The position numbers and the translations under genes were made by a program. From a virus: DNA of 49,176 nucleotides. The notes below the pieces were generated by a model. That model did not search any database. It was not told the origin of the DNA and was given only the letters and a program-made list of their open reading frames with translations. The number at the start of each line of letters is the position of its first letter. Positions within the stretch are counted from its first letter, which is position 1. Positions 3 to 46,766 of this stretch are shown piece after piece. The stretch is taken from positions 1-49,176 of IMG/VR virus record IMGVR_UViG_3300018080_002664; one strand, given 5' to 3'.

Positions 3-80
3 GCTGTTTGGATAATATCAGTGGTATATATAGAACATTCTGATTTATTAAATGAAGGATATGATAATGAAATACATTAA
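3..80 (+). CDS. 3' end of a small ORF cut by the window edge
   Basis: An open frame runs from the first bases to a TAA and ends in residues LLNEGYDNEIH. It overlaps the next gene by 14 nt, the tight packing seen in the rest of this operon. If the window is circular, the frame continues from an ATG at 49155 preceded by AAAGG, giving a 33-residue protein with a hydrophobic stretch (VWIISVVYI). No family is recognised. An open frame this short could also arise by chance. Confidence 0.35.
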   Translation, partial: AVWIISVVYIEHSDLLNEGYDNEIH

Positions 81-579
81 ATGTCCAATCTGTAAAGGTA
101 ATTCTATCAGATTTGATAATTCTAGACAATCCATACCTTGTAAAAAATGTAAAGGATTAGGTATAATTAAAAGAAATTTTAATTTTAAAGATAATCGACC
201 TGTAATTGCTTTTGATTTTGATGCTGTAATAGCTAGTTATAAAAGACCCTTTAAATACAATAAATTAGGAACACCTGTATACGAAATTATAAATACAATA
301 AATTATTTTAAAGAAAAAGGATGTTATATTTTAATTTTTACTGGTAGACAATGTACTCCGAAATTCGTACAATGGTTAAAAAAATATAAAGTTTCTTATG
401 ACGGAATTAATACTAATATTAAAACGCATATAAATGCTTCTCGATTTAAACCTTATTATGACGTATTGGTAGATGATAAAGCTTTAAATTTTGATTGGAA
501 ACATAATAGGAAATCCGAAGTAAAGTTAAAAAAAGAAATCGAAAATATTTTAGAACAAGGTTTTGAAGGAAAGGAATAA
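67..579 (+). CDS. HAD-superfamily phosphatase with N-terminal zinc ribbon
   Basis: The N-terminus carries a DnaJ-like zinc knuckle (CPIC at residues 6-9, CKKC at 25-28). A HAD hydrolase core follows: motif I DFDAV near residue 50, a motif II-like IFTGR and a motif IV-like VDDKA. HAD enzymes of this size usually remove phosphate from small molecules or nucleic acid ends. The start at 67 is chosen because AAGGAT lies 7 nt upstream; an in-frame ATG at 52 has no such site. It heads the sulfation operon, so dephosphorylation of a nucleotide by-product such as PAP is conceivable, but nothing in the sequence shows the substrate. Confidence 0.75.
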   Translation: MKYIKCPICKGNSIRFDNSRQSIPCKKCKGLGIIKRNFNFKDNRPVIAFDFDAVIASYKRPFKYNKLGTPVYEIINTINYFKEKGCYILIFTGRQCTPKFVQWLKKYKVSYDGINTNIKTHINASRFKPYYDVLVDDKALNFDWKHNRKSEVKLKKEIENILEQGFEGKE

Positions 580-580
580 T

Positions 581-952
581 ATGAAAAAAGAACATAAAAT
601 TTACGAATTTGTAATAGGTCGTTTTCAATGTCTCCCCCCACATGACGGACACCTGGAGCTTATAAGAACAGTTTTAAAAGAAGGAAAAAATGTTTGTATA
701 GCTTTACGAGAAGCAGACTGTACTGAAAAAAATCCTTATACCTTCCAGGAACGTCATAGAGCCTTTATGAAAATATTTTCTCATGAAGTAGCAGAAGGAA
801 CAGTTAAAATTATTAAGATACCCGATATAGATAACGTAGTTTATGGTCGTACTCCAGGATGGGGTATACGAGAAGTACGTTTATCAAAAGATTTAGAATC
901 TATCAGCGGAACTGAAATGAGAAAGAAAAACGAGGAAAAAAATAATGCGTAA
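581..952 (+). CDS. small nucleotidyltransferase, possible minimal ATP-sulfurylase-like enzyme
   Basis: A 123-residue HxGH-type nucleotidyltransferase. PPHDGH (residues 19-24) matches the alpha-phosphate binding HxGH motif and ISGTEMR (108-114) matches the C-terminal motif. NMN adenylyltransferases usually have ISSTxxR there, whereas ATP sulfurylases have ISGTxxR, and the next gene is an APS kinase. Making adenylylsulfate is therefore an attractive inference. The protein is far shorter than Sat/CysN and resembles NadM/NadR in length, so an NMN or other adenylyltransferase role remains possible. The start at 581 has AAAGGA 7 nt upstream; an earlier in-frame ATG at 563 lies inside the previous gene without a good site. 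Confidence 0.7.
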   Translation: MKKEHKIYEFVIGRFQCLPPHDGHLELIRTVLKEGKNVCIALREADCTEKNPYTFQERHRAFMKIFSHEVAEGTVKIIKIPDIDNVVYGRTPGWGIREVRLSKDLESISGTEMRKKNEEKNNA

Positions 953-1655
953 TTTTAGACATTTAAAACTAGGACTTTTAACCTGGAAGGCGATAATTTA
1001 TAGAATAATTTCAGTATTAATTTTTATATTATTATTTGGACGTAAATTTGCTTTGTTAGCAGGTGCGGTGTCTATTGTAATTTATTATATTTATGATTGG
1101 ATATTCCATAAATTTTTCAGGATTTCAAAAGATAAAGGATTTGTCTTATGGTTTACAGGACTCCCTTGTTCTGGAAAATCTACAATAGCAGATGCTCTCG
1201 TTCCTATTTTACAAAAAGAAGGGATTAAAGTTGAAAGACTAGATGGAGATGTTGTTCGTAAAGGTAAATTAAGCGATGACTTAGGATTTTCTAAAGAAGA
1301 TAGAGATAAAAATATTAATAGAATAAATTTTGTAAGTGGATTACTTTCTAGAAATGGAATAGCAGTATTATCTTCTTTTGTTTCTCCTTATAGAGAAACT
1401 AGGAGTAAAATTCGTGAAAATGTAACTAATTTTATAGAAATACATGTAATGGCTTCTCCTAAAAAATGTGCAGAAAGAGATGTAAAGGGTATGTGGGCGA
1501 AAGCCAAAATAGGAGAAATCAAAGGCTTTACTGGTTATGACGCTCCTTATGAATACCCTATTAACCCTGAAATAACCTGTAATACAAATAAAGAAACTTT
1601 AGAACAAAGTGTTAATAAAATATTTCAATATTTAAGGAGATATAAATATATATGA
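945..1655 (+). CDS. cysC: membrane-anchored adenylylsulfate (APS) kinase
   Basis: APS kinase phosphorylates APS to PAPS, the sulfate donor of sulfotransferases. The kinase half is complete: Walker A GLPCSGKST (72-80), LDGD (99-102), SPYRETR (147-153) and the lid-like GFTGYDAPYEYP (194-205). The first 60 residues hold two hydrophobic segments with RHLK, TWK and YYIYD-type features of the DUF2061 membrane domain, so the kinase probably sits at the inner face of the membrane. It overlaps the upstream nucleotidyltransferase by 8 nt and the next sulfotransferase by 4 nt, which implies translational coupling. The kinase assignment is firm; DUF2061 is from pattern memory. Confidence 0.92.
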   Translation: MRNFRHLKLGLLTWKAIIYRIISVLIFILLFGRKFALLAGAVSIVIYYIYDWIFHKFFRISKDKGFVLWFTGLPCSGKSTIADALVPILQKEGIKVERLDGDVVRKGKLSDDLGFSKEDRDKNINRINFVSGLLSRNGIAVLSSFVSPYRETRSKIRENVTNFIEIHVMASPKKCAERDVKGMWAKAKIGEIKGFTGYDAPYEYPINPEITCNTNKETLEQSVNKIFQYLRRYKYI

Positions 1656-2407
1656 GAATAACTTTGCCAGATTTTATTATTCCAGGTGCTATGAAAGCAG
1701 GTACTACAGGTTTGTATTGGACTTTATGTAAAGAACATCCTAATATAGGCTATCCTGAAGTAAAAGAACTTACATTTTTTGATAATCATTGGAAAAAAAA
1801 TCTTAATTGGTATGCTAATCATTTTAAACATGTTAAAGAAGGTCAAATAACAGGAGAAAGCAGTCCTAGTTATTTAGTAAGACCTTATGCTATCGAAAGA
1901 ATGAAAAAGATTTTACCAGGAGCAAAAATCATCGTTATGCTTAGAAATCCTGTTGATAGGAGTTTTTCTCAATTTAAACATTATGTTAAAAATAGCAGGA
2001 GATTTGACCATTGTATAGGTTTAACAGAAAATTTTGAAGAATTCTTAGAACAATATGCCAATCCTCCGTATGATAAAAGATTACATTGGATGGGAATAGG
2101 TTTATTAGAACGAAGTATTTATTTACCTCAAATAAAAGAACTGTTAAAGCATTATAATAAACGTCAAATTATGATAATTAAAAGTGAAGACTATTTTAGA
2201 AATCCATTAAAAGTATGTAATCAGGTTTGTCGTTTTTTAAAAATTAAACCTTTTAAAAATATAAAAAAAGTTAGGAATTATAATAAATCTACTTTAAACA
2301 TAAAATTTAAAAAAGAAACCAGGGAAAAATTAAAAAATTATTTTAAACCCTATAATAAAAAATTATACGAATTTTTAAAAAGGGATTTTGGATGGGAAAA
2401 AATATAA
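1652..2407 (+). CDS. PAPS-dependent sulfotransferase 1
   Basis: A 251-residue sulfotransferase of the heparan-sulfate/NodH-like fold. The PAPS 5'-phosphosulfate loop is GAMKAGTT (12-19), and the 3'-phosphate site is RNPVDRSFSQF (98-108). GESSPSYL near residue 68 fits the central helix of the family. It would move sulfate from PAPS to a hydroxyl, most likely on a sugar given the neighbouring glycosyltransferases. It overlaps cysC by ATGA and shares a 37-bp identical DNA segment with the next gene, pointing to tandem duplication or gene conversion. Confidence 0.9.
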   Translation: MRITLPDFIIPGAMKAGTTGLYWTLCKEHPNIGYPEVKELTFFDNHWKKNLNWYANHFKHVKEGQITGESSPSYLVRPYAIERMKKILPGAKIIVMLRNPVDRSFSQFKHYVKNSRRFDHCIGLTENFEEFLEQYANPPYDKRLHWMGIGLLERSIYLPQIKELLKHYNKRQIMIIKSEDYFRNPLKVCNQVCRFLKIKPFKNIKKVRNYNKSTLNIKFKKETREKLKNYFKPYNKKLYEFLKRDFGWEKI

Positions 2408-3123
2408 TGAATCAATTACCAAATTTTATGATTATAGGTGGAATGAGATGTGGCACTACAGTTTTATATAAAATATTAAAAAAACATCCTGAAATTTCTT
2501 TTTCAAAAACTAAAGAACCCCATTTCTTTGATTTAGATAAAAGATATCTCAAAGGGGTAAAATTCTATAAAGAATATTTTAACATAGCATCTCAAGCAAT
2601 AGGAGAAGCAACCGCTTCTTATTTAAGAAGGTACAATAAAGTACCGAAAAGAATTAAACAAATTTTACCAAAACTTAAAGTTATTATTATGCTTAGAAAT
2701 CCTGTTGATAGGAGTTTTTCTCATTATTTCTTTCATCAACAATTCAAAAAGAAAATAAAACAAAAACAATGTATATACGATTCTATAGAAGATATGATAG
2801 CAAAAACAGGTTTTGATAGTAATGTGTTTAAAGATAGTCTATATTATTTTCAATTACAAGAATGGTTTAAATATTTTCCTAAAAGTCAAGTATTAATTGT
2901 CAAATCAGAAGATTTTTTTAAGTCTCCTCAACTAACAATACGTAAAATATTAAAATTTCTTAAAGTTAAAGTATTAAATTTAAATTTAGAGGTTGACAAA
3001 ATAAACACAATTACAAAAAATAGGAAATTAAAGAAACATACTAGAAAAATTATGAAAAACTATTTTACAAAATTTAATACTAAATTACATAGTTTAATAA
3101 ATAGGGATTTAAGGTGGGAATGA
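2407..3123 (+). CDS. PAPS-dependent sulfotransferase 2
   Basis: Closely related in plan to the preceding gene: 5'-PSB loop GGMRCGTT near the N-terminus, KEPHFFD, GEATASYL, and RNPVDRSFSHYF as the 3'-phosphate site. The ATG at 2407 overlaps the upstream TAA as TAATG, the coupling used across this phage; an in-frame ATG at 2392 would add five residues. Divergence outside the cofactor motifs suggests a different acceptor position from sulfotransferase 1. Confidence 0.88.
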   Translation: MNQLPNFMIIGGMRCGTTVLYKILKKHPEISFSKTKEPHFFDLDKRYLKGVKFYKEYFNIASQAIGEATASYLRRYNKVPKRIKQILPKLKVIIMLRNPVDRSFSHYFFHQQFKKKIKQKQCIYDSIEDMIAKTGFDSNVFKDSLYYFQLQEWFKYFPKSQVLIVKSEDFFKSPQLTIRKILKFLKVKVLNLNLEVDKINTITKNRKLKKHTRKIMKNYFTKFNTKLHSLINRDLRWE

Positions 3124-3124
3124 T

Positions 3125-3694
3125 ATGAATAAATTGTTTTTTATTATAGGTATGAGACGTTCAGGCACAAGTATTTTACGAAAAATTGTTATGCGAAATT
3201 CTCAAGTTAAAAATATAGAATTTGAACCTAATGAATTACTAGAGATTACTGAAAGAATAGATATTCCTAGATATAGAAATATTCCATTTTTTAAAAATAC
3301 ATTAGAACGATTTAAAGAACATAGTGATAAATACTATGGGGCAAAACTTGCATTAAATCCTGGTATAGAGGCTATGAGATGGTTAAATTTGCCTTTTAAA
3401 TTCCCTAATGCTAAATTTATTTTTATAAGAAGAACTCCAAAAAGCACTTATAATTCATGGATTAATATAGAAACTTCTAAAAGGGGACTCTGTAGTTATC
3501 AAATGTATTTAGATTGGTGGACTCATATTAATGTTTCTTTTTTAAATTTTGAGAAATCTAAAAGATGTATTATTGATTATGAAAAGCTGATTAAAAATCC
3601 TGATATTGAAATGTTTAAAATTTGGAAGTTTTTAAAAGTTCCGAGAATATATAATTTAAAAAACATGATTAAAACACCTAAATATGGATGCTAA
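3125..3694 (+). CDS. sulfotransferase-like protein 3 (short)
   Basis: The N-terminal loop GMRRSGTS matches a PAPS phosphosulfate-binding loop, and FIFIRRTPKSTYNSW matches the strand and helix carrying the 3'-phosphate ligands. At 189 residues it is shorter than its two neighbours and more divergent, with an aromatic-rich middle (MYLDWWTHINVSF). It starts 1 nt after the upstream stop. A P-loop nucleotide-binding protein of another kind cannot be excluded, but a third sulfotransferase in the same operon is the simplest reading. Confidence 0.78.
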   Translation: MNKLFFIIGMRRSGTSILRKIVMRNSQVKNIEFEPNELLEITERIDIPRYRNIPFFKNTLERFKEHSDKYYGAKLALNPGIEAMRWLNLPFKFPNAKFIFIRRTPKSTYNSWINIETSKRGLCSYQMYLDWWTHINVSFLNFEKSKRCIIDYEKLIKNPDIEMFKIWKFLKVPRIYNLKNMIKTPKYGC

Positions 3695-3695
3695 T

Positions 3696-6338
3696 ATGGA
3701 AAAGAAATTGAATATAGCGTATTTTTATAATAGACCTGGATGGGCTTTTGAATTTGAGGCTATAAATTATAAAAAATTTAGTTCTCATAATGTAATTATT
3801 ATGTTAGAAAGCGATTTTGATAACCTGGATTATAATATAGATGTCGCAGTTTTACCTAGTTGTTTACATTATAATCTTATAATAAATCAACAAAGATTAG
3901 AAGATTTAAGAAAAAAGAAGATAAAATTAGTAGTTCAATGTAATAGTCATAAAGAACTCGATTATGATGTTCCTAATGCAGATTTGATAATACCAAGTTC
4001 TAAAAAATTATATATAGAACTTATCAAAAAATATCCTAAAACAAAAGTATCTTATCAACCTCACTTTGTAGATACAAATTTTTTCAAGCCAGAATATAAC
4101 TATAATAACTTTACCGTAGGATGGGTCGGAGATTTAAAAAATCCTTTTAAAAGGTCTCACCTTATAAATCAGATTAAATATCCTATAAAAATAAAAAGTG
4201 ATTTTTTGAAAAGCCAAAAAGAAAATGTATTACAACAAGACATGCCTAGTTATTATAATACCATAGATGTTTTACTTGTATTAAGCGAATCAGAAGGCAC
4301 TCCTATGCCTCTATTAGAAGCTTTAAGTTGTGGAAAAATAGTTATAACTACTGATGTAGGAATTGCTAGAGAATTTTTACATCCTTTTTATATTATAAAC
4401 GCCAGAAATGAAAACGAAATAGTAAAACAAGTAAATGATAAATTAGATTATTTAAAAAATCATGTTAATTTACAAAAAAATGCTTCGAAAAAGTTTGTGA
4501 AAATAATAGAAAAAAGATTTGATTGGAAAAATAACGTTAGAAAACTAGATACTCTATATTCATCTTTGAATAACAAAAAAACAATCCCTCAAGTATTTTA
4601 TAGTCCTGAACCTAATCATTGTTATTTACAAGAGTTATCAAAACATATAAATATTAAATTTGAAAATAATATAGCTAAAATTAAGGATATAAGTTATCCT
4701 GTAATATTATGGAATCCTTATGGATATTTAGTAGCTCCTAAATTACATTGGAAAAAAGATATTTATGAATATAGAAGAAGACAAGGAAAAGCTACTTATA
4801 TTTTAGAAAGAGGAGCTTTACCTTCTTCAATTTTTCTAGACCGTTGGGGTTTTTTGGCAAATAGTCAATCATATCAATCTGAAAAATGGGATAAACCTTT
4901 ATCAGAGAAAGAAAAAAAATTAGTTATTAAATATATAAAAAATTTTATATCCAGTGATACTACATTAGAACCTCAAAATAATAATAGAATATCTAGAGCC
5001 GAATTTTATAAATCTTTAGATTTGGCTTCTAATCACAAAATTGTTTTTGTCCCTATGCAAGTATGTAAAGATACCGTAATACAATTATTCGGTGGATGGA
5101 TAGGAAAAATGGAAAATCTAGAACCTCTATTACGTCAAATTGCAATAGAAAATCCTAAAATAACTTTCTTAGTTAAAAATCATCCAGTAGAAAGAAATTA
5201 TAAAGTAAGTGCTTCAAAGAACATAAAAATAGTGGATAACTATCACTATAAAGATTGTATAGCATATTCAGATGCTATATTAACTATTAATTCTAGTGTA
5301 GGATTACAGGCTCTTATGTGGTCAAAAACTGTAATTACATTAGGTAAGTGCTTTTATAATTTTCCTTTATTAACAAAAAAAGCTAACAGTAAAGAAGAAA
5401 TAGTAAAATATATTAAACAAAATTCAAGTCCTATTACAGAAAAAGTCAGAAGATTAATTTTTTATTTGAGATTTATGTTTTATTCTTATTGCGAAATGGA
5501 AAAAACAGGAAATAACGCTAGTAAACCTTTAGTTATGAAAAATGTAAGGTACGAACATAAAAATACAGGTTATTTAGAAGGCAAATTCGAACCTGAAGCA
5601 ATAATAAAAGATTATAAATCTACAGAAACAATATCGGTTTTAATCCCTGCTTTTAACAGAGAAAAATGGGTAGAACAATCTTTAAGAAGTATATTAAATC
5701 AAACATATAAAGATTTAGATATTATAATTTATGATGATGGAAGTACCGATAATACTTTAAATATTTGTAAAAAACTAGCAGAAGAAGATAATAGAATAAG
5801 AATAATAGAGGGCAAAGAAAATAAAGGAGTTGCCGAAGCTAGAAATATATTGCTTAATAATTGTCAGACCAAATATGCAGTATGGCATGATACTGATGAC
5901 TTTTCTAATATTAGAAGAATAGAATTGCAGTATGAAGAAATGAAAAAGAAAGAAAGACTAATTTTCGGTACTTGGGATAATTTATCTTATCATCCTGGAG
6001 AATGGAAAGAAGAACCTAAAATACAGACTAGACCGAAACCAAGACCAAAAGGATTTGCTACTCTCATGTTTCCAGTAAAAAAAGAAATAAATTTTGACCC
6101 TAATAAAAAATTAGGAGGGGAAGATTGGGATTGGATAGAAAAAATGAGGAGACGTTATCATGAAATATTAATTCCTCAAAGGGTTTATTATATAAACTTC
6201 CATTTAGATAAAATTGGTCAATGGAAAAAAGTATTAACTCAATTTCCAGGTATAGACATGACTAAAATGAGTTATCAAGAAATGCAAGAATTTTATAGGA
6301 AACATACAGGAAAGGATATTAAAGATGGGGAAGAATAA
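3696..6338 (+). CDS. three-domain glycosyltransferase (GT-B + KpsS/C-like + GT2)
   Basis: About 880 residues with three sugar-transfer modules. Residues 1-290 form a GT-B domain like GT4 (SESEGTPMPLLEALSCG near 205). Residues 300-605 look like a capsule synthesis domain of the KpsS/KpsC beta-Kdo transferase kind (FLVKNHPVE and TINSSVGLQALMW). Residues 625-860 are a GT2 transferase (SVLIPAFNREKWVEQSL, YDDGSTD and HDTDDFSN as DXD region). Such a fusion would build a short oligosaccharide. The start at 3696 follows the upstream stop directly; an ATG at 3684 is possible. It is flanked by sulfotransferases and another transferase, so the product is a likely sulfation acceptor. Confidence 0.85.
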   Translation: MEKKLNIAYFYNRPGWAFEFEAINYKKFSSHNVIIMLESDFDNLDYNIDVAVLPSCLHYNLIINQQRLEDLRKKKIKLVVQCNSHKELDYDVPNADLIIPSSKKLYIELIKKYPKTKVSYQPHFVDTNFFKPEYNYNNFTVGWVGDLKNPFKRSHLINQIKYPIKIKSDFLKSQKENVLQQDMPSYYNTIDVLLVLSESEGTPMPLLEALSCGKIVITTDVGIAREFLHPFYIINARNENEIVKQVNDKLDYLKNHVNLQKNASKKFVKIIEKRFDWKNNVRKLDTLYSSLNNKKTIPQVFYSPEPNHCYLQELSKHINIKFENNIAKIKDISYPVILWNPYGYLVAPKLHWKKDIYEYRRRQGKATYILERGALPSSIFLDRWGFLANSQSYQSEKWDKPLSEKEKKLVIKYIKNFISSDTTLEPQNNNRISRAEFYKSLDLASNHKIVFVPMQVCKDTVIQLFGGWIGKMENLEPLLRQIAIENPKITFLVKNHPVERNYKVSASKNIKIVDNYHYKDCIAYSDAILTINSSVGLQALMWSKTVITLGKCFYNFPLLTKKANSKEEIVKYIKQNSSPITEKVRRLIFYLRFMFYSYCEMEKTGNNASKPLVMKNVRYEHKNTGYLEGKFEPEAIIKDYKSTETISVLIPAFNREKWVEQSLRSILNQTYKDLDIIIYDDGSTDNTLNICKKLAEEDNRIRIIEGKENKGVAEARNILLNNCQTKYAVWHDTDDFSNIRRIELQYEEMKKKERLIFGTWDNLSYHPGEWKEEPKIQTRPKPRPKGFATLMFPVKKEINFDPNKKLGGEDWDWIEKMRRRYHEILIPQRVYYINFHLDKIGQWKKVLTQFPGIDMTKMSYQEMQEFYRKHTGKDIKDGEE

Positions 6339-6969
6339 GAAAAAACCTCTAGTTTATATTTCATATGCGACTAAAGATACTCCCTACGTAGACGAACTTA
6401 ACACTCATCTATTGCCGACTTTGAAAAAATTTGATTTAAATTATGATATAGAATACCCTGCAAATAGAGGAAATTGGCAAGCGAATACAGGATATAAATC
6501 AGAATTTATTTTAAAAATGTTAGAAAAACATAAAAGACCTGTAATATTTTTAGATGCCGATGCCGAAATATGGAAATATCCTGGATTATTTGAAAATATT
6601 TCTAATAAATACGATTTGGGTGTTCATATATTAGATTGGGGTTGGGTTTGGCATAAAAAACATATAAACAAAAAAGAACTTTTATCTGGAACTATGTATA
6701 TTCCTTATAAAGAGAAAACCCTAGAGATAATTAAAGAATGGATAATAGAAGTTAAAGATAATTCATCTCAATGGGAACAAAGAGTATTGCATAATGTAGT
6801 AGATAATCATCCTGAATTATATATTTTTCATTTGCCTTTTGAATATATAACCTTTCCTAATCATAAAAACGAACTACCTCTTCATGCGGTAAAAAAAGAA
6901 GATGTGGTTATATATCATACACAGGCAAGTAGGAGATTAAAAAATTGGAGAGCTAATGAAAACAGGTAA
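6325..6969 (+). CDS. DXD-containing nucleotide-diphospho-sugar transferase
   Basis: A 214-residue GT-A-type protein. FLDADAEIWKYP is a DXD metal and sugar-nucleotide site in the style of the nucleotide-diphospho-sugar transferase family, and SGTMYIPY plus NHPELYIFHLP fit its C-terminal half. It overlaps the large glycosyltransferase by 14 nt, with AAGGAT 8 nt before the start. Probably adds one residue to the same glycan; donor and acceptor are unknown. Confidence 0.72.
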   Translation: MGKNKKKPLVYISYATKDTPYVDELNTHLLPTLKKFDLNYDIEYPANRGNWQANTGYKSEFILKMLEKHKRPVIFLDADAEIWKYPGLFENISNKYDLGVHILDWGWVWHKKHINKKELLSGTMYIPYKEKTLEIIKEWIIEVKDNSSQWEQRVLHNVVDNHPELYIFHLPFEYITFPNHKNELPLHAVKKEDVVIYHTQASRRLKNWRANENR

Positions 6970-7423
6970 TATAATGTTAATTCATAGTAAATATGACCCT
7001 ATAGCTTGGCTCATACGTAAGATTACAAAATCTTATTGGAATCATGTGGCATGGGTTGTTCATCATGACACTCTTTTAGAAGCTACTGCTAGTAGGATTG
7101 GACTGTCTCCTATAGGTAAATATTTAAATTGGAAATACGATTTTTGTTTTATAAAACTTAAAAATATTTCAGAAGAAAAGTTACAACAAGCTATCAGTTA
7201 TGCTTTACAATTTCAAACTAAAAGACATTATATTTCATATTTGAAATTATTAATAAAATATTATCTTGCTGAAAATAAAGTTCCTATAATGGGCTTTACT
7301 TGTAGTAATTTTATTGCTAGAGGTTTAGAAACTATAAATTATTATTTTATCAATCCCAAATTTAAAAGTCCTTATTTTATAACTCCAAAGGACATAGCGG
7401 AATCGAAAAACGAGCATGTTTAA
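6956..7423 (+). CDS. permuted NlpC/P60-like (YiiX/LRAT-type) papain-like hydrolase
   Basis: A 155-residue protein with a histidine early (SYWNHVAWVV, about residue 30) and a cysteine late (GFTCSNFIARG, about residue 120). This is the order found in circularly permuted NlpC/P60 proteins such as YiiX and LRAT. These act as amidases or acyltransferases on lipids or peptides. No signal peptide is evident. It sits within the glycan operon and overlaps its neighbour by 14 nt, so it could trim or transfer a group on the glycoconjugate. A role in lysis is possible but not supported by location. Confidence 0.62.
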   Translation: MKTGNIMLIHSKYDPIAWLIRKITKSYWNHVAWVVHHDTLLEATASRIGLSPIGKYLNWKYDFCFIKLKNISEEKLQQAISYALQFQTKRHYISYLKLLIKYYLAENKVPIMGFTCSNFIARGLETINYYFINPKFKSPYFITPKDIAESKNEHV

Positions 7424-7424
7424 A

Positions 7425-8120
7425 ATGAATAAACAAATTATAATTATTGGCGGAGGAACAAGTATTAGAGAAGGGATTCAAAAAAGACTTTGGGTTAAAT
7501 TAAATAATAAATATGTTGTAGGTTTAAATTACTCTTATAAATACTTCTCTAATCCTACTTTTCAATCTTTCGTTGATAACGATTTCTACAATGAGAACGT
7601 AAAAGATTTATCTAAATTACCTTTGATTATAGGAAATAAAAAAACACTTAAAAAGAAATTACCTAATACAATCTTACTTCCTTCCATATCAAAGTATTAT
7701 GAAGATATTAAACATGGAGTTTATAAGGCTTCTTTAGTCGGTTTATGGGCTTTATCTTTAGTAATATATTTAGCGGAAGAAGGAGATAAAATTTATTTAT
7801 TAGGTTATGATTACGGAGAAGATAAAAGATTTAAAGGTCAGAAAATAATAACTCATTTTTATCAAGGCGATATTAAACATAGAGGAATAGGAAAAATAAA
7901 TTATTATAGTGCTAATAATAGAGCTGAAAAAGATTTTGGTTGTTATAGAAACGTTAAAAAAGTTAAGATATTTAATGTATCAAAGATAAGTAAAATTCCA
8001 GAAACCATTTTTCCACAGCTCACGTATGAAGAATTTTTTAAACAATTAAAGAATAAAGAATATAATCAAGATATATTAAGAACTCAAATTAAAAATAAGC
8101 TCAAATGGGTGAAGGAGTAA
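7425..8120 (+). CDS. DUF115/MptE-like or CstII-like glycan protein
   Basis: The start IIIIGGGTSIREG is a nucleotide-binding glycine loop, and a central YKASLVGLWALSLVIYLA followed by KIYLLGYDYGED is typical of the DUF115/MptE-like fold, which is related to CstII-type sialyltransferases. Members are often found in glycan and flagellin-glycosylation loci and in phage genomes. It would probably act on a nucleotide-activated sugar. It is the last enzyme of the operon. The start is uncertain between 7416 and 7425, as neither has a clear ribosome site. Confidence 0.6.
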   Translation: MNKQIIIIGGGTSIREGIQKRLWVKLNNKYVVGLNYSYKYFSNPTFQSFVDNDFYNENVKDLSKLPLIIGNKKTLKKKLPNTILLPSISKYYEDIKHGVYKASLVGLWALSLVIYLAEEGDKIYLLGYDYGEDKRFKGQKIITHFYQGDIKHRGIGKINYYSANNRAEKDFGCYRNVKKVKIFNVSKISKIPETIFPQLTYEEFFKQLKNKEYNQDILRTQIKNKLKWVKE

Positions 8121-37980: not shown

Positions 37981-39696
37981 TTATTTTTTCTTTTCTTTTT
38001 TAAATTCTTTATTTAGCATACTTTTAGTTAAAGTTTTTGGAATTAACTTTCCGTCTTGTCTTTTCTTTTTTCTAACCCAATTTCCTTTTTTGTCTTTACG
38101 AGCGATTTTTTTAATAGCAGACCACGCCACTCTAAAAGCCCTACTTTCAGATTCGTAAGTTTTTAAAGCTTTATTAACAACTGAAAGAAACACTTTTTGC
38201 AAATCTGCTGACATATTCTTTTTTACTCTTTTTGGTAATTGTTTGGTATTATTATAAGGAGCTATTTCTAAATCTCTTTTTTGGCTCATATCAAATTTTT
38301 CTTTATCATCTTTATCTTTTCTCATTGGACTTCCATCATTATTGATGTCCTCATCTTTATTTCTTTTCTCTTCTAAAGGAGAAATATCGTTTTCTTTATT
38401 TTCAGTATAATGAGGGTACATAAGAATTTCTGTTCCATCTTGAAGTTCGTTATCTCTTCTTATTTTTTCAGTTGAATATTCTATTTCTCCAACAAGTTCG
38501 GCATAAGTTTGATTAGATAACTGCCCATGTTTCCAAAGAAGTCTAAGTTCTTGTTTAAATTTATCTGTAATAAGACCTCTCACAGGAGAAGAAGTAACTA
38601 TAAATTCGGAATTGTTATATTTAATTGAAGTTTCATTTCGTTCCATAGCAAGTAACAATACTTGATAGATTAACAATTTAAAATCTTCAACACCTGCTCT
38701 AACTTCTTCAATAAACCCTTTTGGATTAATAACCGCTTCTCTTCTAGTTTCAGATGCACTTTGAACTATATCAATAAAACCCAAACCTCCTAAGATATTT
38801 TTTTCGGCTTGTTCAAAAAGTTTAGGTGTAAACGCAGTAGCTAAATCAGGGATTAAATGTTTTATTTCTTCAGCATAGTCAGTAACTCTCATTTTAGTCT
38901 GAGCGTCTCTACTTGCTCTATGGTCTTTATATTCTCTAAGTAAATCCTGAATATCTTCATAAATAGCTTTATATTCTGCGTCTGTATAAGTTTTACCTGC
39001 ATTAGTTAATTCAGAACTTCCTTTTTTAACTAACATAAGATAAGGAATAACTTCTTCTAATATTTTATTTCCAAATTGTTTTAAAGAATGTATTATCCTA
39101 TAATTATGATAAACTCCTCTTTTTATAAGAAAAGGTACAGGATATTTATCAAACCATCTTCCATAAGGACGTGAGAATATAACTCCAGAATCTAATTTTG
39201 CATTTTCGTTTTCAGTATCTCCTAAATAATAATCGTAACTATCAAGAGTTAACACGTCTTCATCGGATTTTGATTTTGCTTTGACCTCTTTTCCATCAAC
39301 AAAAAACATTCTAGCAGGGAGTTCATATCCATCATAATTCCCCCATTTAGTAATTTTTAAAACAGGAAAAGAAGCTCCTTTCCATCTTTCTTTAAAATAC
39401 TCTTTGGCTAAAGATTTTAATCCAGGGGGAATTTTTCCCTTATAATCTTTATTAACTTGTGTTGACCATCTTTTTAAAATTTTATTTAAATTTTCATTGT
39501 CAGTCTCTATACCATATTCTACCGTAGCACTTTGAACAGCGAAATCAGTAAGACTATCTACTAAACCTGTCACGTCATCTACTAACATTTTATCTATAGC
39601 TTCTGCCTGTTCTTTAAAAGTATCGGGTATAATTATTTTCTTCAAAAATAATGAAAATAGATTATTTAAAAAAACTGTAGAATCTATTGTACTCAT
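37981..39696 (-). CDS. portal protein with C-terminal ChaB-like domain
   Basis: 571 residues, directly after the large terminase with a 1-nt gap, the standard place of the portal. The body has the portal pattern: helical start, KEYFKERWKGASFPVLKI, DSGVIFSRPYGRWF, long stem helices and a crown. Residues 487-546 resemble a ChaB domain: LPKRVKKNMSADLQKVFLSV and RAFRVAWSAIKKI, then GNWV. ChaB-like tails are found on some phage structural proteins and may bind nucleic acid or prohead partners. Confidence 0.78.
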   Translation of the reverse strand: MSTIDSTVFLNNLFSLFLKKIIIPDTFKEQAEAIDKMLVDDVTGLVDSLTDFAVQSATVEYGIETDNENLNKILKRWSTQVNKDYKGKIPPGLKSLAKEYFKERWKGASFPVLKITKWGNYDGYELPARMFFVDGKEVKAKSKSDEDVLTLDSYDYYLGDTENENAKLDSGVIFSRPYGRWFDKYPVPFLIKRGVYHNYRIIHSLKQFGNKILEEVIPYLMLVKKGSSELTNAGKTYTDAEYKAIYEDIQDLLREYKDHRASRDAQTKMRVTDYAEEIKHLIPDLATAFTPKLFEQAEKNILGGLGFIDIVQSASETRREAVINPKGFIEEVRAGVEDFKLLIYQVLLLAMERNETSIKYNNSEFIVTSSPVRGLITDKFKQELRLLWKHGQLSNQTYAELVGEIEYSTEKIRRDNELQDGTEILMYPHYTENKENDISPLEEKRNKDEDINNDGSPMRKDKDDKEKFDMSQKRDLEIAPYNNTKQLPKRVKKNMSADLQKVFLSVVNKALKTYESESRAFRVAWSAIKKIARKDKKGNWVRKKKRQDGKLIPKTLTKSMLNKEFKKEKKK

Positions 39697-39697
39697 C

Positions 39698-41545
39698 TTA
39701 TTCTCCTTCTATCTCTTTAAATTTTTTGGATAAACGTTTTAATTCAGAAACCGCTAATTGTGCTCTTTTAGTGTCTCCTCTAAACGTATAATAATTAGCT
39801 CTTTCTTCTAGTAATTTTTTAATATACCTTATAAATTGAGATTTCTCACATTCTATTTTTAATCCTTCATTTATATTATTTATAATTTCTTTTTTGTTTT
39901 CTCTATCCTCTAATATTCTTCTTTTTATAGAACTGATTCCTAATCCTATTTTACTAAGCATACTTGGAGTAGAATTGAAATCTTTTTTTAGCCATTGTGC
40001 TATAGCTAATACTTTGAAACAGTCAAATAAATGGTCTCCTGTTTCACTAATACAAGCATACATTTTTCTAGTTCCTGAATTCATAGAAACTACAGAACTA
40101 AATTGACTATCAAATTTATGGTCAAAAGGAATATGCAATCTAGATTCATATAGCAAAATTTTTAATCTTTTTATTGCCCATTCGGACATAAATTCTTCTT
40201 TGGTAATCAACTTTCCTTTTTTATCTATAACAGGTTTCCCTTTGTCGTTTTTCTCAAAACCTACAGCCACTTTTTTATTTCCTGCATACCAAACTAAATT
40301 ATCTTTATAACCTCTTTTTTCAAATCGGTCATATAAACCTCTACCACAAGCTTCTCCACAATCAAAACCTAAAATATTTGCTTGAGTTTGTTCAACTAAA
40401 TAATCAAAAATATTGTATTGTTCTTCTTCTGTCATTTTATAAAGAACGATGTTATATAGCCAGTAATAATCATTACCAACCTCAGAAAAAATATTTATAT
40501 CTGAACCTCCGCCCCCATCTCCAATATCACCAACTATAAATATTCTATCGGCATTTTTAGGTCGTTCAACTACTAAAAGACTTTTAAAATTTTGGAATTG
40601 AGTTTTTTTCAACTCAAATCTTTTAATCTTTTTTCTAGTTTGATAACAATCTTCAACTCTTTCCATATCAAATTCAGTAGAAGCGTCTGGTACAATTTCA
40701 CCCTTGACATATATTTTATAATTAAGAGCTTCTTCGCCTCCATAGGTGTCCATTTTATCTTTCTTTTCTTCTTCATCCCAAAATGGATTCACAAATTGAG
40801 GAAGATTAATGATATGTTTTTGATTCTTATTATTTGTAAAAATTTTTCCTATAGGAGAGTATCTCGGAAAGTCAGTCATACCTGCTAATCTATGAATAGC
40901 CCCCAATTCAGATTCACTTTCTGTACGTTTCTTATGAACTTTATCAGTTTCAAAACTTACTTCATCTCCCCAAAATTTTTCAGCATGTATCTGATAAAAT
41001 TGTTCTCCAGGGTTTTTTCCTTTTAAAGTCATATTAACACCCTGTATTTTCCATCCAGTATTTTTATTTGTGAATCTAATTTCTGGTTTGAAAGAACAAT
41101 GATATTTCCAAGTTTTAAAAATAGGATGGAAATCAAACGCTAATTTTACATCGTCAGCTATTCCACGAAGTCTTTTATCGTCTATTGAGTATAAACAACC
41201 CCAAAGTTTATCGTCGTAAATAGATGAGAGAGGGATATCTAATTTCAACGTACATAAACTTTTTCCATATTTCCTTGCTCCGAGATTATAAAGGTCTGCT
41301 ACATTTTTTCGTAATTTAAATTTTGCTTTTTCATTTAAATTATGATGTTTTGCAGTAGCGTCAAAATCTATTAAAGATTCGTGAGATATCATAGGTCTTT
41401 GATAAAACCTAATACTTCCTAGTTGTTCAACATCAAAATCTCCAAGATTGTCAAAGTTCGAAAACAGACATTCAGTCATGCAAATTGGATTACACCAATT
41501 TTCCATAAAAGAAAGTTCTTCTTCTGTAATTTTTTCTATAAGCAT
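39698..41545 (-). CDS. terL: large terminase subunit (TerL)
   Basis: 615 residues: ATPase and nuclease motor for DNA packaging. Walker A GARKYGKS (89-96), Walker B with catalytic acid AEKFWGDE (D194, E195), nuclease aspartates in IFIVGDIGDG (D340), ILGFDCGEACG and HLFDCFKVLAIA. The motif order and spacing are complete. It ends 1 nt before the portal gene. Confidence 0.88.
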   Translation of the reverse strand: MLIEKITEEELSFMENWCNPICMTECLFSNFDNLGDFDVEQLGSIRFYQRPMISHESLIDFDATAKHHNLNEKAKFKLRKNVADLYNLGARKYGKSLCTLKLDIPLSSIYDDKLWGCLYSIDDKRLRGIADDVKLAFDFHPIFKTWKYHCSFKPEIRFTNKNTGWKIQGVNMTLKGKNPGEQFYQIHAEKFWGDEVSFETDKVHKKRTESESELGAIHRLAGMTDFPRYSPIGKIFTNNKNQKHIINLPQFVNPFWDEEEKKDKMDTYGGEEALNYKIYVKGEIVPDASTEFDMERVEDCYQTRKKIKRFELKKTQFQNFKSLLVVERPKNADRIFIVGDIGDGGGGSDINIFSEVGNDYYWLYNIVLYKMTEEEQYNIFDYLVEQTQANILGFDCGEACGRGLYDRFEKRGYKDNLVWYAGNKKVAVGFEKNDKGKPVIDKKGKLITKEEFMSEWAIKRLKILLYESRLHIPFDHKFDSQFSSVVSMNSGTRKMYACISETGDHLFDCFKVLAIAQWLKKDFNSTPSMLSKIGLGISSIKRRILEDRENKKEIINNINEGLKIECEKSQFIRYIKKLLEERANYYTFRGDTKRAQLAVSELKRLSKKFKEIEGE

Positions 41546-45763: not shown

Positions 45764-45839
45764 TGGTTGTGGGAATTGGATTTGAACCAATACTTCTAGA
45801 GTCAAAGTCTAACGTGCTACCAGATTACACCATCCCACA
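45764..45839 (-). tRNA. tRNA-Gln (anticodon TTG)
   Basis: A complete 76-nt cloverleaf. Acceptor TGTGGGA pairs with TCCCACA. The D-arm is GGTG/GCAC. The anticodon stem TTAGA/TCTAG has loop CTTTGAC, anticodon TTG. The T-arm is ATTGG/CCAAT. Discriminator A and CCA are encoded. It reads CAA codons, the favoured glutamine codon in this AT-rich genome. Confidence 0.93.
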
Positions 45840-45854
45840 TGGAAATGGATATAT

Positions 45855-46766
45855 TTATCCATTATATCTTTGAATAAAGTCAACCAAACTTTTTACAGGC
45901 TCTCCTGTAGCTTTCTGTTTTTCTTCATCGAAAGTAGAATAAGCAATATCTAAATGAATCCATTTGTTAAGATTAGGAACAAATTGTTTTATAAACATAG
46001 CTCCCATAGTAGCACCTGGTTTTGTTTTTTCCCAATTTTTTATTTTTTTCGTCTTAAACTTTTTTTGTAAATAATCCCAAAGAGGTAATCTCCAAGCTAA
46101 TTCTTTTACAGAATCGGCACTATCTAAATATTTTTGTGCTAATTTGTTATTTGGAGAAAAAACTCCAGTTGCTTTATCTCCTATAGCATATCCAACCATT
46201 CCTGTTAAGGTAGCAATAGTAAAAATAACATTGTCTTTATAATTCTCCAAATTGGATAAAGCCTCTGCTAAAATTAATCTACCTTCCGCATCTGTGTCTG
46301 TAATCTCAACTATTTTATCTTTTATTTTTAGATAATCTCCAGGAATAATTTTATTATTATGTATAAAATTAGTACTTACAGGACAATAAGCAATTACATT
46401 CTCTTTTTTCAATTCATTCTTAAAATAAGAAGCAACTGCAAAAGAAGTAGCTAATCCTGACATGTCAATTTTCATATCTGCCATTTTATCTTTTAGATTG
46501 TAGCCCCCTGCGTCAAAAAGAATCCCTTTTCCTACTAAAACAATATCTGACCTTTTAATTGCTTTATGAGTAGAAACTATTTTACAATTTTTATGATATC
46601 CTCCCATTAACTGAATAGCTCCAGTTTTAGAAGTGTCATATTCAAAAACCTCACATTTGAATTCTTTTTTCAAAATAGATATATAATTATCTAAATTAAA
46701 TTTATTGTAAGGATAATCTATTAGCTTTTTACATTTTTTTATATATTTCTGTAAATTTTTACTCAT
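45855..46766 (-). CDS. M17 leucyl aminopeptidase, catalytic domain only
   Basis: 303 residues. M17 aminopeptidases remove N-terminal residues using two metal ions. All key residues are visible: VGKGILFDAGG (K80, D85), K92, MKIDMSG (D101), NKIIPGD, and TDTDAEGRLILAEAL (D159, E161, R163), with the family's late NLNKWIHLDIA segment. The N-terminal non-catalytic domain of PepA (about 170 residues) is missing. GGGGGGAAG stands before the ATG. Unusual in a phage; possible roles are amino-acid recycling or maturation of a protein. Confidence 0.88.
   Translation of the reverse strand: MSKNLQKYIKKCKKLIDYPYNKFNLDNYISILKKEFKCEVFEYDTSKTGAIQLMGGYHKNCKIVSTHKAIKRSDIVLVGKGILFDAGGYNLKDKMADMKIDMSGLATSFAVASYFKNELKKENVIAYCPVSTNFIHNNKIIPGDYLKIKDKIVEITDTDAEGRLILAEALSNLENYKDNVIFTIATLTGMVGYAIGDKATGVFSPNNKLAQKYLDSADSVKELAWRLPLWDYLQKKFKTKKIKNWEKTKPGATMGAMFIKQFVPNLNKWIHLDIAYSTFDEEKQKATGEPVKSLVDFIQRYNG

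Follow-up and report, generated by a model that had tools for sequence, protein, structure and literature searches.

A putative phage-borne operon for sulfate activation and glycan sulfation, with an NMNAT-type candidate for the APS-forming step

The window analysed here, 49,176 bases long, is a virus record of IMG/VR, a contig of an uncultured phage, which begins with ten open reading frames on the + strand (52-8120) whose neighbours overlap or are separated by a gap of one base. They encode a HAD-like hydrolase, a nucleotidyltransferase (referred to as NT), an APS kinase (CysC), three sulfotransferases, a three-domain glycosyltransferase and three weakly assigned proteins (Table 1). An earlier note on this DNA had described a block of overlapping genes on one strand at 67-8120; strand and overlaps stand, but the block starts at 52. 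Beyond 8120 the contig is made up largely of phage structural genes on the - strand, including those for tape measure, LamG and beta-helix proteins. Since relatives hold additional island genes upstream, the block is probably truncated by the contig start, and the window probably shows the distal end of the island only. The visible operon contains no polymerase, flippase or initiating transferase.

Table 1. Genes of the operon at the start of the window, with the evidence for each assignment.
Feature	Coordinates	Strand	Evidence
HAD-superfamily hydrolase whose N-terminal Cys motif is zinc-ribbon-like; speculatively a PPi or PAP phosphatase	52..579	+	phrog_1238 (79 bits), polynucleotide-kinase PHROGs, weak BT0820-type HAD match
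NT, NMNAT-derived nucleotidyltransferase, candidate APS-forming enzyme	563..952; first ATG 578	+	PF01467, NMNAT-like NCBIfam matches, family alignment A3, homologue model, APS-kinase linkage
APS kinase (CysC) with N-terminal hydrophobic segment, probably membrane	945..1655	+	PF01583, TIGR00455, phmmer 5cb6, motifs
PAPS-dependent sulfotransferase 1	1652..2407	+	PF00685 (63.9 bits); AMKAGTT and LRNPVDRSFS motifs; PDB relatives
PAPS-dependent sulfotransferase 2	2392..3123	+	PF00685 (79.9 bits); 1zrh (E 8e-24)
Sulfotransferase 3, short	3125..3694	+	PF13469 (52.4 bits); weak protein-tyrosine sulfotransferase match
Three-domain glycosyltransferase: GT4-like, Capsule_synth, GT2	3684..6338	+	PF00534, PF05159, PF00535, each over cut-off
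Putative nucleotide-sugar transferase	6325..6969	+	PF03407 (20.4 bits; homologue 22.5; cut-off 22)
YiiX/C92-type permuted papain-like amidase	6956..7423	+	weak PF05708 match, above the cut-off in a homologue
Conserved island protein, possible sialyltransferase-type glycosyltransferase	7416..8120	+	phrog_4603 (E 5e-4)

The APS kinase and the three sulfotransferases, which the earlier note had recognized from their motifs, are borne out by HMM matches above curated cut-offs. The kinase reaches 182 bits with PF01583 (cut-off 21.1) and 202 bits with TIGR00455 (cut-off 138.7), phmmer aligns it to 5cb6 (E 9e-53), and the full APS-kinase motif set is present (DGDxxR, GFSxEDRxxNI, SPY and RDxKGMWAKAxxGxIKxFTGxDxPYE); the kinase has the P-loop as well as the APS-binding and lid motifs. 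Its N-terminal hydrophobic segment is probably a membrane segment, which is DUF2061-like in relatives, the domain scoring over the cut-off in the homologue L036 and slightly below it in L003. The sulfotransferases, in gene order, score 63.9, 79.9 and 38.2 bits with PF00685 (cut-off 22) and 46, 62 and 52 bits with PF13469 (cut-off 27). Read by eye, their PAPS 5'-PSB motifs are AMKAGTTGL, GMRCGTTVL and GMRRSGTSIL, and the 3'-PB motif is LRNPVDRSFS in the first two and IRRTPKSTYNSW in the third. The PDB relatives of sulfotransferase 1 include heparan sulfate 3-O- and N-sulfotransferases, and 1zrh, the match of sulfotransferase 2, is a heparan sulfate 3-O-sulfotransferase; homologues of the short third enzyme, 44-52% identical, are found in the islands of L003, L005 and L006. 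Exact-peptide pattern scans of viral_contigs with sulfotransferase 2, the 7416-8120 protein and a tail-tip protein returned no relatives, which is not evidence of absence, since the records analysed do contain homologues of the tail-tip protein and, in islands, of the 7416-8120 protein.

The 884-aa glycosyltransferase combines Glycos_transf_1 (50 bits), Capsule_synth (65 bits) and Glycos_transf_2 (115 bits), all above cut-off, and its Capsule_synth part is 44% identical to a free-standing protein of L007. Up to five glycosyltransferase-type domains had been proposed for the block; these three are solid, but the other two, at 6325-6969 and 7416-8120, are weak candidates. The former matches Nucleotid_trans slightly under the cut-off while its homologue scores slightly over it, and the gene is kept in the islands of G002, G004 and G005. 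The latter, for which the PHROGs give a weak sialyltransferase match and Pfam gives none, and which lacks a credible relative in the PDB, is 45-52% identical in four related islands. Between them, the C92-type amidase assignment of 6956-7423 comes via a homologue. The HAD hydrolase has homologues in L002, L003 and L007, and a HAD-NT fusion occurs in L002/L004.

NT is a nucleotidyltransferase of the CTP_transf_like/NMNAT type (PF01467, 24.9 bits, cut-off 21). In hhalign comparisons it matches NMNAT at 99.7% (E 1e-26), and the result against ATP sulfurylase (Sat; 16%, 17 columns), not a meaningful match, led us to reject NT as a divergent Sat. A Gly-Arg motif is seen in both when compared by eye (GRxxG in NT, GRDHAG in Sat), and Sat is not among the PDB matches shown for the structure search with the NT model. 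The model, built for the L007 homologue from 20 sequences (it replaced one based on 8, in which the GRxVGW loop was poorly modelled), has a pLDDT of 92.5, adopts the NMNAT/PPAT fold and superposes on 1ej2 with a TMq of 0.73. With archaeal-type NMN adenylyltransferase (NadM, 1ej2) NT shares, besides the fold, the HxGH and ISxTxxR motifs. In the alignment of 20 family members, numbered by the window ORF from its TTG start, GR, both His of HxxH, Arg49, PDI and GRxxG are invariant, HxGH is found in nearly all members and ISxT...R is nearly invariant; alignment A3 displays HxGH, the invariant Arg49, Gly95-Arg96 and ISxTxxR. Fold and profile thus indicate that NT is derived from NMN adenylyltransferases, and it scores below the cut-offs of the NMNAT equivalogs TIGR01527 (26.9 bits, cut-off 181.2) and PRK01153 (37.4 bits, cut-off 127). 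The Trp that is invariant in NMNATs after the third strand is present in 18 of 18 NMNAT-like proteins of Patescibacteria and absent from all 26 NT sequences, in each of which the surrounding segment is deleted. Furthermore, two positions are Arg throughout the 26 NT sequences where the 18 NMNAT-like proteins have Gly and mostly Ser, and these arginines may be sulfate ligands.

Of 17 distinct viral contigs with NT (near-identical ones merged, and G004, whose NT was found later, left out), 16 have an APS-kinase-like gene next to NT, fused to it or at a distance of a few genes, and the lone exception begins at a contig edge. The NT of G004, 72% identical to that of the window, is an island gene as well, at a distance of about 13 kb from the kinase. 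Fusions of the two are frequent and occur in either order, some of the NT-linked kinases are shortened, and a kinase-NT fusion is also present in cultured Stenotrophomonas phages. Cellular NT genes came from two Patescibacteria and three marine MAGs, and each of them adjoins the kinase gene or is fused to it; one marine genome (G017) encodes NT and Sat together. The literature searches turned up no account of NT together with APS kinase.

A survey of 380 Patescibacteria genomes, which are MAGs so that absences may be gaps, identified full-length NT in nine, with the kinase adjacent or fused in all nine, and the kinase beside none of about 20 lower-scoring NMNAT-like hits. Sat over the cut-off was found in 8 of the 380, without overlap with the nine NT genomes. 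An APS kinase of at least 60 bits, a threshold picked after the scores were seen, is present in 20 of the 380 genomes, being fused to Sat in eight, linked to NT in nine, fused to CysN in two (G180 and G344) and alone in one (G078). The CysN-fused kinase of G344 is the short type that pairs with NT; the fusion ties this type to APS, which argues that the short kinase would still act on APS. CysD-type PF01507 matches in the NT genomes are absent or weak (25 bits or less), the latter in frames of about 615 aa unlike CysD. Sulfotransferases (PF00685) are encoded in 23 of the 380 genomes, namely in five of the nine with NT compared with 18 of the 371 others (Fisher p 5.6e-5), and in four of the eight with Sat. 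Since 14 of the 23 have neither NT nor Sat, the sulfotransferase requires neither.

Taken together, we consider it likely that the operon is a phage-carried cassette for sulfate activation and glycan sulfation, leading from sulfate via PAPS to a sulfated glycan. The coupling of activation to sulfation, proposed in the earlier note, is strengthened by the linkage, the fusions and the Patescibacteria comparisons. In the proposed route, NT would adenylylate sulfate (ATP + sulfate → APS + PPi), CysC, probably at the membrane, would phosphorylate APS to PAPS, the glycosyltransferases would assemble or lengthen a glycan chain attached to an acceptor, and the three sulfotransferases would place sulfate on that chain, the operon genes presumably acting jointly on one glycan. 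APS formation is thermodynamically poor unless PPi is removed, so that the linked HAD hydrolase might, speculatively, act as a pyrophosphatase or else clear PAP.

The candidate for an APS-forming enzyme put forward earlier is this nucleotidyltransferase and not a PF01747 ATP sulfurylase, a family without a match in the window record or in 13 other viral records; a match to CysD (PF01507) is likewise lacking from the window record, possibly a fragment. It is probable that NT makes APS, although its kinship with NMNATs, the occurrence of NT with Sat in G017 and the shortening of some NT-linked kinases count against this reading. On balance, and with less confidence than for the cassette as a whole, we favour the view that NMN adenylyltransferases gave rise to a third kind of ATP sulfurylase, the compact NT family. 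It would take the place of Sat or CysDN next to the APS kinase, or in fusion with it, in phages and Patescibacteria, and phages would thereby be equipped to turn sulfate into sulfated glycan on their own. The arrangement resembles Sat-CysC fusions and bifunctional PAPS synthetases (2gks, human PAPSS), in which an adenylyl-transfer domain works together with an APS kinase, or is joined to it, to feed sulfotransferases, but the first domain is here of the NMNAT type, spans about 110-120 residues and does not belong to PF01747, the order varies, and the genes are often separate. Similarly, APS made by the CysD-CysNC complex passes to a CysC that is fused to it or adjoins it, whereas the window operon lacks a GTPase and the NT genomes, where the search for this complex covered CysD, have no CysD-like match with a typical score.

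Nucleotidyltransferases commonly make nucleotide-sugars and many bacteria possess Sat or CysDN, so that NT could instead activate a sugar or phospho-compound for the glycan, with APS coming from the host's own ATP sulfurylase. We regard this as unlikely, given the direct NT-kinase fusions in both orders and in several lineages and the non-overlap of NT and Sat in the 20 Patescibacteria genomes with an APS kinase. Less likely still is that NT and kinase form a pair for NAD salvage, as in NadR, where an NMNAT is joined to a P-loop kinase, with a kinase followed by NMN adenylyl transfer, and lie in a glycan island by chance. By profile and fold NT is an NMNAT relative, and in the cultured Stenotrophomonas phage Bhz60 (L017) the kinase-NT fusion (5148-6324; phrog_10255) is located immediately downstream of a NADAR gene, and NAD chemistry might be suspected from this. 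However, the window kinase exceeds the APS-kinase equivalog cut-off, a kinase of the short, NT-linked type occurs in fusion with CysN elsewhere, and the NT genomes are enriched in sulfotransferases. Moreover, unlike NadM and NadR, NT has lost the NMNAT Trp with its segment, has gained the two invariant arginines and is partnered by a kinase of the APS type.

Viral cysC has usually been assigned to assimilatory sulfate reduction (PMC9789665; PMC12713726), and under that reading the window CysC would be an auxiliary gene supplying PAPS for cysteine synthesis, which we regard as very improbable for this locus. Relatives of the window APS kinase were found at 14 viral loci, and CysH-type PF01507 has no match in 12 of the 14 related viral records, the window included; it is present only in G012 and G013, and PAPS reductase was rejected as the kinase partner on this ground. 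The operon contains three sulfotransferases and glycosyltransferases instead. A sulfotransferase is encoded in nearly all records of at least 50 kb that have this CysC (G002, G004, G005, G006 and G013), and Sat in none of them; G012, a shorter contig with the G013 locus, is without a sulfotransferase. The sulfotransferases in the longer records and the missing CysH in most therefore disfavour the assimilation reading. Many viral cysC genes may, to judge from this locus and its relatives, function in the sulfation of glycans.

The tail module of the window recurs in G002 (89 kb), G004 (104 kb), G005 (54 kb) and G006 (96 kb), and in all four an island lies convergent to it, at the same relative place as in the window. 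These islands contain an APS kinase, NT, one or more sulfotransferases and homologues of the 7416-8120 protein, while the other glycan genes vary. The earlier note had proposed looking for the block in related phages, and a comparable, gene-variable island is indeed present at one site in four diverged contigs, which identifies the island as phage cargo rather than host DNA; judging from these relatives, the genome to which the window belongs probably measures about 90-104 kb and was cut inside the island. Phage islands are often host-derived and the window end cuts this one, but host chromosomal DNA or a chimeric contig is scarcely credible and was rejected in view of the tail-module synteny in independent assemblies. 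A different context is provided by G013, which does not have the tail module of the window and encodes an NT-CysC fusion and, read by eye, what look like sulfotransferases and genes of sialic-acid-type synthesis. Among cultured phages, no close relative was found. The proteins encoded at 37981-39696 and 39698-41545 have no PHROGs match and none in 50,697 phage records, for which reason the lineage looks uncultured; the former (- strand, 571 aa) has a C-terminal ChaB domain and is kept beside the latter in related phages.

Phage glycosyltransferase cassettes serve O-antigen conversion or virion glycosylation, and they share with the island the variable glycosyltransferase genes carried as phage cargo, whereas the window operon adds sulfate activation and three sulfotransferases. 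With respect to the destination of the sulfated product, we slightly prefer the surface of the infected cell over decoration of the virion, since the island gene content varies at one site, as in surface-polysaccharide loci. PAPS-dependent sulfotransferase genes occur in marine and glacier phages, for which the passages cited here report no activating pathway and one of the two papers terms the function unclear (PMC10580990; PMC8290583). Compared with the genes described there, the sulfotransferases of the window are accompanied by an APS kinase, NT and glycosyltransferases. Viral cysC, viewed as an assimilation helper, and phage sulfotransferases without a known function are thereby joined, at this locus and in its relatives, into one sulfation pathway. 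If NT makes APS, sulfate activation could begin with an enzyme other than those known, which would account for how some reduced-genome bacteria that lack Sat could obtain PAPS, and would offer phages new chemistry to alter virions or host surfaces.

Several further features were noted in the window and its relatives. The - strand of the window encodes a protein resembling M17 cytosol aminopeptidases (45855-46766; PF00883, 213 bits), which is unusual for a phage structural region, and near it a single tRNA-Gln (45764-45839, - strand, anticodon ttg). In L006 (15229-16511) island genes beside the sulfotransferases resemble, by eye, a phosphonate pathway (PEP mutase/phosphonopyruvate decarboxylase). 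Scattered in related phages (L003, L005 and L006 and their records, for example L122:18446-19066 and L121:88-777) are repeated small Cys-rich proteins with the pattern KCxxCxKK...RCxxCxxxxHS...KNxxxxG, which are homing-endonuclease-like.
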